Source of the DNA: Desulfuromonas sp. | Lineage (GTDB): Bacteria > Desulfobacterota > Desulfuromonadia > Desulfuromonadales > Desulfuromonadaceae | Length of the DNA: 39,646 bases | Direction of reading: 5' to 3' | NCBI GenBank assembly: GCA_002869685.1 | Contig: PKUE01000158.1 | Span: 1 to 39,646, forward strand | Part shown: piece by piece, positions 28,801 to 34,129 of the stretch | How positions within the stretch are numbered: the stretch's first letter is position 1 | How the letters are laid out: the number at the start of each line of letters is the position of its first letter | The notes under the pieces: generated by a model | The model's input: the letters and a program-made list of their open reading frames with translations, nothing else | The model's database searches: none | What the model was told of the DNA's origin: nothing | Position numbers and translations under genes: made by a program

Positions 28801-29040
28801 GTCAATCTCCTTGTTTTTGTTGTCATGTCAGATTGTATTGATCGGGGTGATTTGCACTGCGATCGGGTGTGTGAAATGGCGACAGTATAGCTCGTTTGGC
28901 AGTGAACGGAAACATCCTAAGGTTAATTGTTGTTATTATTGAAGGTTGGTAATTTTAATCTTTGCCATTATGTGATAGCTTTGGGCGATCTATGGTCACG
29001 TATGGAGCGATCATAGCGGAGCACTATAATGGAGTGGAAC

Positions 29041-29820
29041 ATGCGTATTGTCGTGATTGCCTTGTTAGGTATGACGCTGGTACTTCTCGGCTGTGACCCG
29101 CGAGAGCATCCCGATCTGGGGCGCTCGCAAAAGGCCGAATTGTTAGTTTATTCTGGGATGACCATGGTCAAGCCGCTGCTGAAACTGGCTGAAATCATGG
29201 AGGAGGAGCATGATTGTTCGGTGCAGGTGACCTATGGTGGCAGTGGTCACATCACCAAATCCGTTCAGGTCAACCAGTGTGGAGATATCTTTTTTCCCGG
29301 CGACAGTTTTTATATTGAGCAGCTGCAGAAGCAGAATCTGGTCAGTGATATCGTGACGGTTGGTTATAACCAGGCGGCTTTGTTTGTTCAGCGGGGCAAC
29401 CCGTTGCACATTGCGCCTTCGCTTAATGAGTTGGTGGATAGCGGCTACAATGTGGTGATCGGCAACGAGTTTTCCGGTGCCATAGGCCGTGAAACCAAGG
29501 CGATACTTGGACGGGCCGGTATTTACGATGCGGTGATTGAGAATGTTTTGTATATGGCCACTGATTCCAAAGGACTGGCCCAGGCCCTCCGGCATCAGGA
29601 TGCTGATCTGGTTATCAACTGGAAAGCTGTGGCCTCATTACCGGAAAATAAATATGTTATGGAGATTCTGCCCCTGCCGGAAGAACTTGCGGCCAGACAT
29701 CTCCTGAAAATGGGGGTGCTCAGTTACAGCGCACATCCCGAACTGGCGCGTGAATTTTTGGCCCTGGCCAATTCCTCCCGGGGAAAGAAAATCTTTAGCC
29801 AGTATGGTTTTGTAGACTGA
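29041..29820 (+). CDS. Periplasmic binding lipoprotein (ModA/phosphate-type solute-binding)
   Basis: A lipoprotein with signal MRIVVIALLGMTLVLLG and lipobox Cys18, followed by a solute-binding domain of the molybdate/sulfate/phosphate class (LLVYSGMTMVKPLLKLAEIM, VTYGGSGHITKSV, DIFFPGDSFYIEQL, NPLHIAPSLNEL). The SGM and GGSGH segments are where oxyanion ligands are bound in this class. No ABC permease or ATPase gene follows; instead the stop overlaps the hybrid kinase start by one base. It therefore probably senses rather than imports. ATG 29041 has GGAG six bases upstream; ATG 29029 is also possible but puts an acidic residue in the signal n-region. Confidence 0.85.
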   Translation: MRIVVIALLGMTLVLLGCDPREHPDLGRSQKAELLVYSGMTMVKPLLKLAEIMEEEHDCSVQVTYGGSGHITKSVQVNQCGDIFFPGDSFYIEQLQKQNLVSDIVTVGYNQAALFVQRGNPLHIAPSLNELVDSGYNVVIGNEFSGAIGRETKAILGRAGIYDAVIENVLYMATDSKGLAQALRHQDADLVINWKAVASLPENKYVMEILPLPEELAARHLLKMGVLSYSAHPELAREFLALANSSRGKKIFSQYGFVD

Positions 29821-32800
29821 TGAAACGTTTTTTCGGCAATATCTGTGCGCAGATCCTCATGTTGTTGGGGGTCTGTGTGCTCAGCCTGATCGGTTTGCAT
29901 CTGGGCCACCGTTACCTGGAGGCGCGCCAGAGCTATCTCGATGAGCTGGTGGCCAATGAGCAGGTCAAGGTGGAGATCTCCCATCTGTTGCAGAAGAAGC
30001 TGCTGTCTATCAGTGGTGGTTTGCAGGATTTCACCCATGCGAACTCACAGACGGAAATTGTTCAGGTTGATAACCGGCTTAAAGAGTTGCAGGAACAGAT
30101 TTTTACCTATCTGCATGTCATTGAGGCAGGGGGGATCAGTGAAGAGGTCTACCCGGTCAATTTTGGCGACGAAGAGAGTGTGCGCCGTAAACTCCGCTAT
30201 ATCAATCATACGCCCAACCGCATCAACCTCGAATCCATTGAATTGCGCGCCAAAATGGTTGAACTGGCTGAAATGATACAATCGTTTCGCCAGTTGGCCG
30301 AGCATCGGGTCGTTGTTCTCGAGTTTCGTGATCCGATGATGACAGCAGACACGATTCGTCGGGGCAGCTTTCAGTATAAGGGGATTCGCCCCTTCATCAC
30401 CCGCATCCTCGAAAATGCCAATCGACTCCATTTTCGCAGCCAGAATGAGGCCAATCGACTTCAGGAATACAACCGCCATTTCAGTACCACTTATCGTCGT
30501 GCCGAGTTGCTTTCTGTTGTCATCGCCCTGAGTGCCTTGATGATGATGGGGGCGCTGATTCTTTATCGCAGCCGTCGGATTATTGTTGAACGGCAGCGTT
30601 ATCAGGATGAGTTGGCCGCGATCAATGAAACGCTGGAATCGCGGGTCAGTGATCGCACCTTGCAGCTTGAACAGGAAGTTCTTGAACGTAAGAAGACCGA
30701 ACAGCAGCTTTCCGATCAGGCCCGTTTTTTGACGACGACCATCGAGTCGCTGGGACACCCGTTTCTGGTTATCGATGCCAGGGACAGCCGGGTGGTGATG
30801 GCCAATTCCGCTGCACGCAAAGGCAGTAAGGACGGCAGTGCCCCGACCTGTTACGCACGCACCCATCTGCTCAAGGGGGTTTGCGATGTCAATGACCACC
30901 TGTGCACGTTGAAGCAGGTCGAATTAGTCGGTGATGCGGTGACCATTGAGCACGCTCATCAGGATAATGAGGGGAATCCCGTGTTTGTTGAGGTGCACGG
31001 TTATCCCATTTATGATGCTGATGGCGAGCTGGTGCAGATCATCGAATACGCCCTTGATATCACGGATCGAAAAATAGCCCAGCAGCAGTTGATTGCCGCC
31101 AAGGATCAATTGGAGATGCGTGTCGAAGAGCGCACTCGCGAATTGAAACGGGCCCAGAAGAGTCTGGCGACTCGTGAACGCCATTTCCGCCGGTTGATCG
31201 AAAATGTCACCGATATTATCACCATTGTTGATGCCGACGGGATTGTCAGCTATACCAGCCCGGCGGCTGAGATGTTGTTTGGCAAACCCCTTGAGGAGAT
31301 TGTCGGGCGGGATATCCGCGAATTCGTTGTTAATGAAGACCTTAAAGGCGTCGATCTTCCCACACTGCAGAAGTTGTATGGCACGACCACTCCGGTGGAA
31401 TACCGGGTGTATGATCGCAATCATAAGATTCAGGTGTTGGAATCGTTTATTCAGCAGTTTGACGATGAGCAGAGTGAGCGTCGATATATCCTGTGTTCGC
31501 GCAATATCACCCAGCGTAAAAAGGCCGAGGACGAGAACCGCAAACTGAGCATGGTTGTCGCCCAGAATCCCAGCAGTGTTGTGATTACCGATGTGCAAGG
31601 GCATATTGAATACGTCAATCCCTACTTTGAGCAGGCGACGGGGTACTCTTTTGATGAGGTGATCGGCAAAAATCCCCGGGTGCTTAATGCCGGTAAGACA
31701 CCGAAGCACATCTTTGAAGAGCTGTGGGCGACGATTCTCGCTGGTCAGGTCTGGCAGGGGGAGTTCATTAACCGTAAAAAGAACGGTGAACTCTATGACG
31801 AGAGTGTTCTGGTGTCACCAATCAAAAACGAGCGTGGTGAGATTACCCATTTTGTCGCGTTGAAAGAAAATGTCACCGAACTGAAGAAAGCCAGACAGCA
31901 GGCCGAAGAGGCCAACCGGGCCAAGTCGGAATTCTTGTCACGGATGAGCCACGAACTGCGCACGCCGCTTAATGCCATCAACGGATTTTCCCAGCTGATG
32001 CTGGCGAGCAGAAAGAACCCGCTGACGGACAAACATCGCGCCATGGTGACCCAGATCGATCAGGCGGGGAAACATCTGCTTGAATTGATCAACGAGGTTC
32101 TCGACTTGGCGCGCATTGAAGCCGGAAAATTATCGCTGTCGCTTGAAACGGTCGATCCCTGCCATATTGTCGCTGATTGCCTGCCGTTACTCCACGGTTT
32201 GGCAGACACCCATCAGGTCACGCTTCACAGCCGTTGCTGCGAAAAAACGTTCCCTATGGTGAGGGCTGATTACACTCGGGCCAAGCAGGTGCTGGTTAAT
32301 CTGCTGTCCAACGGCATCAAATACAACCGCGTTGGCGGTCAGGTAACCGTCGATGTGGTGGTTGATGAGCCGCCGGGGTTCCTGTGTTTTAAAGTGGAAG
32401 ACAATGGTCAGGGGATTGCCGAGGACAAGCAAAAAGAGCTCTTTGTTCCTTTCGCCCGCCTGTCCAACGACTCGGACAGCATCGAAGGCACCGGCATCGG
32501 CATGACCATCACCCGTCAGCTGGTCGAAGCGATGGGCGGGATCATCGATTTTACAAGTCGCTATGGCGAAGGCAGTACCTTCTGGTTTACACTGCCGCTG
32601 GCGAAGCCTTCAGCGGTGCATGGCCGTGGTGGTGCTGCGGAGCCTTTAGCGATGGGGGAAACAGTTTGTCCTCCAGGCAACTGCGCAACGGTCTTGTATA
32701 TTGAGGACAATCCGGGCAATATCGGTCTGATGGCCAGTTTTTTTGAAGAGTGGAGTTCGGCGACACTGTTAACCTGCAGTGAAGCGGAACAGGGACTGGA

Positions 32801-33011
32801 GATGGCCGAGACACAGCAGCCCGATGTCATTCTGATGGATTTGAATCTGCCGGGCATTGACGGCTTTGAAGCGATGCGCCGCTTGCGCAGCCAGGCAGCG
32901 ACTGCATCAATTCCGGTGATTGCCATCAGTGCAGATGCCATGAAAGAAACCATGCGGAAGGTGGGCCAGTTTGGCTTTGATGGCTTCGTGGCCAAGCCGG
33001 TCGATTTTTAA
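29820..33011 (+). CDS. Hybrid sensor histidine kinase with three PAS domains; receiver cut short by a stop
   Basis: 1063 residues. Membrane segments lie at about 10-29 and 230-249 around a periplasmic helical domain, followed by a coiled coil and three PAS domains (about 305-420, 455-570, 575-690). Next are HisKA with H711 (FLSRMSHELRTPLNA), HATPase (NLLSNGIKYN, VEDNGQGI, GTGIGM) and a receiver with D1007 (LMDLNLPG) and K1059. PAS1 carries C344, H349, C355, H360 and C362, a possible metal or cofactor site. The frame ends at TAA 33009-33011 right after AKPVDF; without this stop it continues as QLKFLLEEATQRSL up to TGA 33054-33056, which would complete the last helix. Coupled to the binding lipoprotein by TGATG. 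Confidence 0.93.
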   Translation: MKRFFGNICAQILMLLGVCVLSLIGLHLGHRYLEARQSYLDELVANEQVKVEISHLLQKKLLSISGGLQDFTHANSQTEIVQVDNRLKELQEQIFTYLHVIEAGGISEEVYPVNFGDEESVRRKLRYINHTPNRINLESIELRAKMVELAEMIQSFRQLAEHRVVVLEFRDPMMTADTIRRGSFQYKGIRPFITRILENANRLHFRSQNEANRLQEYNRHFSTTYRRAELLSVVIALSALMMMGALILYRSRRIIVERQRYQDELAAINETLESRVSDRTLQLEQEVLERKKTEQQLSDQARFLTTTIESLGHPFLVIDARDSRVVMANSAARKGSKDGSAPTCYARTHLLKGVCDVNDHLCTLKQVELVGDAVTIEHAHQDNEGNPVFVEVHGYPIYDADGELVQIIEYALDITDRKIAQQQLIAAKDQLEMRVEERTRELKRAQKSLATRERHFRRLIENVTDIITIVDADGIVSYTSPAAEMLFGKPLEEIVGRDIREFVVNEDLKGVDLPTLQKLYGTTTPVEYRVYDRNHKIQVLESFIQQFDDEQSERRYILCSRNITQRKKAEDENRKLSMVVAQNPSSVVITDVQGHIEYVNPYFEQATGYSFDEVIGKNPRVLNAGKTPKHIFEELWATILAGQVWQGEFINRKKNGELYDESVLVSPIKNERGEITHFVALKENVTELKKARQQAEEANRAKSEFLSRMSHELRTPLNAINGFSQLMLASRKNPLTDKHRAMVTQIDQAGKHLLELINEVLDLARIEAGKLSLSLETVDPCHIVADCLPLLHGLADTHQVTLHSRCCEKTFPMVRADYTRAKQVLVNLLSNGIKYNRVGGQVTVDVVVDEPPGFLCFKVEDNGQGIAEDKQKELFVPFARLSNDSDSIEGTGIGMTITRQLVEAMGGIIDFTSRYGEGSTFWFTLPLAKPSAVHGRGGAAEPLAMGETVCPPGNCATVLYIEDNPGNIGLMASFFEEWSSATLLTCSEAEQGLEMAETQQPDVILMDLNLPGIDGFEAMRRLRSQAATASIPVIAISADAMKETMRKVGQFGFDGFVAKPVDF

Positions 33012-33056
33012 CAGCTGAAGTTCCTGTTGGAAGAGGCTACCCAGAGGTCGTTATGA
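33012..33056 (+). pseudogene. Severed C-terminal codons of the kinase receiver domain
   Basis: In the kinase frame, directly after TAA, 14 codons read QLKFLLEEATQRSL and then TGA. This is what a receiver domain normally has after the KPVDF motif (helix 5). The TGA overlaps ATG 33053 of the next gene as ATGA, the usual coupling junction. This strongly suggests that the TAA arose by one base change from a sense codon such as GAA, CAA or AAA. Confidence 0.6.
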
Positions 33057-34129
33057 TGGCACTGCCCTCTATTACTGAGGCCAAGATCCTCATCGTCGAT
33101 GATAATCCGGCCAATATTGCTCTTCTTGAAGCGATTCTTGAAGAGGAGGATTACCAGCATCTCTATTCCACCACCGATCCGCGCGACGTGGTTGGGCTGT
33201 ACCGCCAACACGACTTCGATCTGATTTTGCTGGATATTCGCATGCCGTGGTTGTCCGGTTTTGATGTGCTGGAATTACTCGCCGAGGAGTTTGGCGAAGA
33301 CTATGTTCCGGTGATTGTGCTGACCGCACAGACGGACATGGAGACCCGCCACCAGGCGTTGGCGGGGGGCGCGAAAGATTTTCTCACCAAGCCGTTTGAT
33401 GCCTGGGAAGTGTTATTGCGCATCCGCAATTGTCTGGATACCCGCATGTATTTTACCCGTCAGGTGATGCGGGCCGAAGTGCTGGAGCAGGAGGTGCGCA
33501 AGCGTACAGAAGAGATCTGGCATACTCAGCTGGAGATTGTGCGCCGTCTCGGTGTCGCTGGCGAGTTTCGTGACAACGAAACTGGTGCCCATGTTGAACG
33601 GATGAGTCATTTCTGCAGTCTGCTGGCGCGTAAATGTGGGCAGGATGAGGATTACGCCACCATGCTGTTTTATGCCAGCACCATGCACGATGTGGGGAAG
33701 ATCGGCATCGGCGATCAAATTCTTCTCAAACCGGCCCGTCTGACGGATGATGAGCGCGAGGAGATCAATCGCCACCCGCTGATCGGCAGCCAGATCATTG
33801 GCGAACACCCCTCGGCTTTGATGTCCATGGCCCGGGAAACCGCGCTCTATCATCACGAAAAATGGGATGGCAGTGGCTATCCCCATGGTTGTAGCGGCGA
33901 AGAAATTCCGCTGTGTGCCCGTATTGCCGCTGTGTGTGATGTCTTTGATGCTTTGACCAGTACCCGTCCTTATAAAGACGCCTGGAGCATGGAACAGGCT
34001 GTCGCCTATCTTGAGGAAGAGGCGGGCCACCATTTTGATCCCCACCTTGTGCAGTTGTTTGTCACCCACCTTGATGAATTCGTCGCGATCAAGCGCCGTT
34101 TTTCCGATCAGGAAATTCCCTCCGCCTGA
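33053..34129 (+). CDS. Response regulator with HD-GYP domain (RpfG-like c-di-GMP phosphodiesterase)
   Basis: A receiver domain at about residues 10-125 has D61 (LILLDIRMP), T90 and K112, followed by a coiled linker and an HD-GYP domain at about 160-345 with H211-D212 (TMHDVGKIGIGD) and HHEKWDGSGYPHG at 266-278. All hallmark residues are present, so it should hydrolyse c-di-GMP, probably to GMP, when phosphorylated. It lies directly after the hybrid kinase gene, whose receiver or H711 is the likely phosphate source. ATG 33053 or 33056 are both possible, with AGAGG upstream. The last 20 residues are polar. Confidence 0.94.
   Translation: MMALPSITEAKILIVDDNPANIALLEAILEEEDYQHLYSTTDPRDVVGLYRQHDFDLILLDIRMPWLSGFDVLELLAEEFGEDYVPVIVLTAQTDMETRHQALAGGAKDFLTKPFDAWEVLLRIRNCLDTRMYFTRQVMRAEVLEQEVRKRTEEIWHTQLEIVRRLGVAGEFRDNETGAHVERMSHFCSLLARKCGQDEDYATMLFYASTMHDVGKIGIGDQILLKPARLTDDEREEINRHPLIGSQIIGEHPSALMSMARETALYHHEKWDGSGYPHGCSGEEIPLCARIAAVCDVFDALTSTRPYKDAWSMEQAVAYLEEEAGHHFDPHLVQLFVTHLDEFVAIKRRFSDQEIPSA

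Follow-up and report, generated by a model that had tools for sequence, protein, structure and literature searches.

A hybrid histidine kinase gene in a draft assembly of Desulfuromonas sp. carries an in-frame TAA close to its 3' end. In all probability, this stop reflects a recent and derived single-base change that turned a conserved acidic codon into a nonsense codon in an otherwise intact gene, a background event rather than a conserved or regulated feature. The acidic codon at this position is Glu in the nearest relatives. The kinase core, the active-site motifs of the receiver, and the downstream HD-GYP gene are all intact as sequence. As to the origin of the stop, the evidence leans slightly towards an error or a minority-strain base in the assembly over a real young truncation.

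The window analyzed here is the whole contig of 39,646 bases, and the genes described within it lie on the forward strand. The kinase gene occupies positions 29820..33011, an open reading frame (ORF) of 1063 aa in which Pfam recognizes a sensor region, PAS domains, HisKA, HATPase_c, and a shortened receiver. The core of a hybrid kinase is present, with PF00512 (HisKA) at residues 701-769 and PF02518 (HATPase_c) at 817-928, and the phospho-acceptor His motif SHELRTP begins at residue 710 (His711). The C-terminal receiver extends from 32691 to 33008, as far as AKPVDF, and matches positions 1-102 of the 111 in the Response_reg model. All of its active-site motifs are found (YIEDN at 960, LMDLNLPG at 1005, ISADAM at 1036, and AKPVDF at 1058). 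The attached receiver thus keeps the acidic pair, the Asp, the Ser/Thr, and the Lys expected of a hybrid kinase.

The kinase frame ends with DGFVAKPVDF followed by TAA at 33009..33011. Beyond this stop, the same frame offers 14 sense codons (QLKFLLEEATQRSL) and then a TGA at 33054-33056, so that the conserved tail with its stop spans 33012..33056. The TGA overlaps the ATG of the HD-GYP gene (33053) as ATGA (33053-33056). An earlier note on this DNA had described both the halt directly after AKPVDF and the same-frame tail with its ATGA overlap, and both descriptions are correct. The openness of the tail is by itself no proof of coding, since chance alone leaves 14 codons open in about half of all cases ((61/64)^14 = 0.51). 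Nor is the TAA an edge effect, as the closest contig end is 6.6 kb away.

Structural models define what the stop removes. AlphaFold2 predicts nine secondary-structure elements for the receiver as written, the last being strand 5, at a mean pLDDT of 91.5. When the stop is read as Glu, a helix at 116-130 is added and the mean pLDDT is 92.7; these confidence values come from an input alignment of 16 receivers with 20-30% identity to the query and do not measure stability. Apart from shifts of one or two residues at element boundaries, the two models are otherwise alike. The written protein therefore falls short of the complete five-helix receiver fold by helix 5 alone, which in the read-through model is formed by the conserved tail, and the proposal that the stop takes away the last receiver helix agrees with these models. 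A structure search with the read-through model ranked DivK (1m5t) first (TM-score 0.86, 30% identity) and the receiver of the hybrid kinase PA1611 (PDB 7c1j) fifteenth (TM-score 0.84, 29% identity). The fold of both includes the last helix, whereas the written protein of the window is without it.

Comparison with relatives indicates that the stop is derived. The genus search covered 10 genomes, including the source genome (G000), and recovered three full-length orthologues (in G007, G008, and G001) with 72-73% identity over residues 1-1063, together with two paralogues at 48-49% identity. The end of a related kinase was also found at a contig edge in G002. When the sensor region was searched against 136 genomes of the order, 16 of them had matches. 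The resulting comparison of C-termini comprised 15 proteins besides that of the window, namely the three orthologues, the two paralogues, the G009 and G002 receivers, and eight more distant kinases; five weak matches of 19 were left out. In all 15 receivers, 18-25 residues separate the KP lysine from the last residue, compared with 5 in the window. Hence, the orthologue comparison proposed in the earlier note has a clear outcome, with every relative continuing beyond KPVDF, and a stop as a family trait is ruled out. The residue at the stop position is Glu in five, Asp in eight, Ser in one, and Leu in one of these C-termini. The codon is GAA in all four nearest relatives (G007, G008, G001, and G009) and GAT in G002 and both paralogues, so the single base change invoked to explain the stop is the one that separates TAA from GAA.

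The distance from KPVDF to ILIVDDN of the next gene is 77 bases in the window and in each of these four nearest relatives, which places no insertion or deletion between them here; the corresponding distances are 80, 115, and 118 bases in G002 and the two paralogues. Together, the GAA codon and the unchanged spacing in the four nearest relatives mark the stop as derived. The three orthologous kinases share the downstream receiver-HD-GYP gene with the window. Unlike the window kinase, they run 15 residues beyond KPVDF, up to a stop that overlaps the next start or directly adjoins it. The first eight tail residues of the window (QLKFLLEE) match QMKFLLED of G008 and G001 at 6/8 positions, and QLQFLLED of G007 likewise. 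Over these eight codons, no second-position difference occurs, and each comparison shows four third-position differences. It is this conservation, and not its openness, that sets the tail beyond chance. The locus in G009 (L049 4740-6611, contig C1) has a different arrangement, with a remnant of a solute-binding protein gene, a stand-alone 163-aa receiver with a complete helix 5, and then the HD-GYP gene; the sensor and core of the kinase appear to have been lost there. Compared with the G001 receiver over 111 codons, that of G009 shows 15 silent and 9 residue-changing differences.

Sequence around the stop bears on its age. In the eight codons after it, the window differs from each of G001, G008, and G007 by 2-4 silent and 2 residue-changing codons. 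Changes specific to the window were counted where its residue differs while G007, G008, and G001 agree. Per site, such changes come to 0.15 for the receiver, 0.14 for PAS, 0.12 for the sensor, 0.08 for HATPase, and 0.01 for HisKA. Overall divergence of the window kinase is highest in the receiver, where the difference from each of the three relatives is 0.34 (sensor and PAS, 0.24-0.29), and the relatives also differ most from one another in this domain (0.22 between G007 and G008). Despite this overall divergence, the window-only changes reveal no relaxed selection on the receiver, its value being close to that of PAS. A decayed pseudogene was likewise rejected, as there is only one stop, the frame is open elsewhere, and window-only changes in the receiver are not above those in PAS. 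With no decay visible in the flanking sequence, the stop is either young or not real.

The kinase gene sits between two genes of an apparent signaling module. Upstream, a solute-binding protein gene (29029..29820; Pfam SBP_bac_11, PF13531, E 1.5e-52) ends on the base that begins the kinase ATG. Downstream, positions 33053..34129 encode a response regulator of 358 aa with a receiver and an HD-GYP domain (PF00072, PF13487). Its start now lies 41 bases beyond the kinase stop instead of overlapping it. AGAGG at 33043..33047 is the likely ribosome-binding site of this gene, with a duplex of -6.5 kcal/mol to the anti-Shine-Dalgarno sequence, compared with -3.9 to -6.4 kcal/mol in five relatives. Given this pairing, translation of the HD-GYP gene probably continues from this site of its own. 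It is possible that disruption of the start-stop overlap also abolishes the HD-GYP protein, though the ribosome-binding site weakens this case. Among the Pfam matches of the solute-binding protein, the kinase, and the HD-GYP regulator, no HPt domain was found. The pairing of a hybrid kinase gene with a receiver-HD-GYP gene, as at 29029-34129, recurs in several genera of the order (loci L094-L106). An ORF of about 260-350 aa mostly lies directly upstream of the pair, its SBP_bac_11 assignment having been covered in the window and G008.

Stops within conserved sequence elsewhere in the assembly, a draft of 186 contigs, provide the context for this one. A genome-wide Pfam scan gave 72 receiver matches, and only that of the window kinase (32691-33020, with one TAA within) contains a stop, compared with 0/71 of the others and 0/42 ABC ATPase domains. 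A survey of gene pairs compared 839,284 bases of G000 with 1.2 Mb of G008, with minima of 50% identity and 70% coverage of the G008 frame. This yielded 251 pairs, of which 249 passed a coding-like filter on third positions (93,205 aligned codons); 249 may slightly overstate the real genes, because the filter leaves some antisense frames. Inspection by eye discarded 22 of 24 rows with stops (18 lay ahead of the probable start codon, 3 fell within 6 codons of a natural end, and 1 was in an antisense frame). Two of the 249 pairs thus have a stop inside conserved sequence, namely the window kinase and a hypoxanthine phosphoribosyltransferase (HPRT) gene. The HPRT stop (locus L225) is a minus-strand TAG at G000:C172:43166-43168; the G008 counterpart reads GAA there, within VEDIIDTG, and identity to G008 is 77% before the stop and 85% after it. 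We take the Glu at this position to be catalytically important. The gene on C172 is the sole genome match above the family cut-off (a second, weak match lies on C88), and the other eight matches above the cut-off in the genus are all free of internal stops.

Single nonsense differences therefore occur in this assembly, and the second one, at a motif Glu in a housekeeping gene, speaks for base errors or young nonsense alleles as a general background rather than for biology specific to the kinase. About 3.5% of random single-base changes in the surveyed codons create a stop, so that two stops would imply about 58 random changes among 279,042 bases, or 2e-4 per base, assuming random errors. A rate of this size fits consensus errors in a draft and also an ordinary number of young nonsense alleles. 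The two stops both fall at Glu codons, to which about 20% of possible nonsense changes belong; the chance of this is 0.04, a weak hint of a common cause. Reassignment of TAA or TAG as sense was ruled out, as only 2/249 pairs are affected. Loss of mutY or fpg as a source of G-to-T mutations is unsupported, both genes being present and open in G000. The acetate kinase frame of G008 (counterpart of G000:C172:40352-41057) shifts near ORF residue 179, and the G000 copy is open for 427 codons; the shift is a frameshift or a base error in the G008 record.

An error in the record has about an even chance of being the origin of the TAA. Under this explanation, the base in the contig is erroneous, stems from library damage, or belongs to a minority strain, and the kinase of the organism is full length. 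The draft state of the assembly makes this credible, as does the HPRT gene, which is open in 8/8 other full-length genus copies but here has a TAG at a motif Glu, followed by well-conserved sequence. The implied error rate would be plausible for a draft, but it is high for a well-covered and polished assembly, and the stop-free ABC ATPase domains and remaining receivers also argue against frequent errors. A real young nonsense allele, which would disable the receiver and leave the kinase core and the HD-GYP regulator, is somewhat less probable, although a serious contender. The undecayed flanking sequence is what a young change would leave, and a nonsense codon in 2 of 249 genes is an unremarkable load of young pseudogenes; however, the companion stop at the HPRT motif Glu is easier to accept as an error.

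Two further explanations would give the stop a function. It is improbable that the truncation is real and selected, with the HD-GYP regulator driven directly by the kinase, or with a receiver that functions without helix 5 or in trans with a helix lent by another chain. The active-site residues are kept, and helix swapping has precedents: helix 5 is exchanged between chains in Spo0A and alpha4-beta5-alpha5 in CRE1 (PMC8498639). The swapped domains nonetheless still encode the helix, no relative (0/15) shares the short form, and no other C-terminal receiver in the surveyed 839 kb ends so early (the one in C37 has 23 residues counted from its KP). Among the literature matches listed, no receiver without helix 5 was recognized, and no match was found for stops in metagenome bins. 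Partial read-through of the TAA, producing long and short kinases, is more improbable still. The conserved tail and its end at the normal overlap with the next gene would suit it, yet a recent change accounts for the tail equally well. Programmed read-through would be expected to be shared, whereas 0/15 relatives have the stop, and none of the 38 tRNAs read among 43 genome matches carries a suppressor anticodon (UUA or CUA). Judged from sequence, read-through appears to be without positive support.

If the recent nonsense change is a real truncation, the kinase core with His711 would still be made, and the HD-GYP regulator would still be translated from its own ribosome-binding site. The attached receiver would lack helix 5, which covers one face of the sheet, and would probably be unstable or inactive. 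Direct phosphotransfer from His711 to the HD-GYP receiver is plausible given that no HPt domain is among the Pfam matches, and the attached receiver may then act as a brake or sink. The kinase may signal to the HD-GYP regulator with its own receiver no longer serving as brake or relay. Partial parallels exist in other systems. RsbK is a hybrid kinase with an inhibitory C-terminal receiver, the loss of which can leave the kinase constitutively active (PMC4574943). It resembles the window kinase in carrying a C-terminal receiver on a sensor kinase, but it belongs to another bacterium with another output, and there the whole receiver is deleted, whereas only helix 5 is missing here. In CRE1, a stop that removes alpha4-beta5-alpha5 leads to lower cytokinin sensitivity (PMC8498639), a larger truncation than that of the window. 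CuaDSR has a solute-binding protein gene beside kinase and regulator genes (PMC10384115); this likeness is one of gene order, and the output in the window is instead an HD-GYP regulator.

Together, the kinase and HPRT stops call for caution, in that any single in-frame stop of this assembly merits verification in the reads before a gene is taken as lost. If the truncation proves real, it would offer a natural single-codon test of the role of helix 5 in the attached receiver of a module composed of a solute-binding protein, a hybrid kinase, and an HD-GYP regulator.
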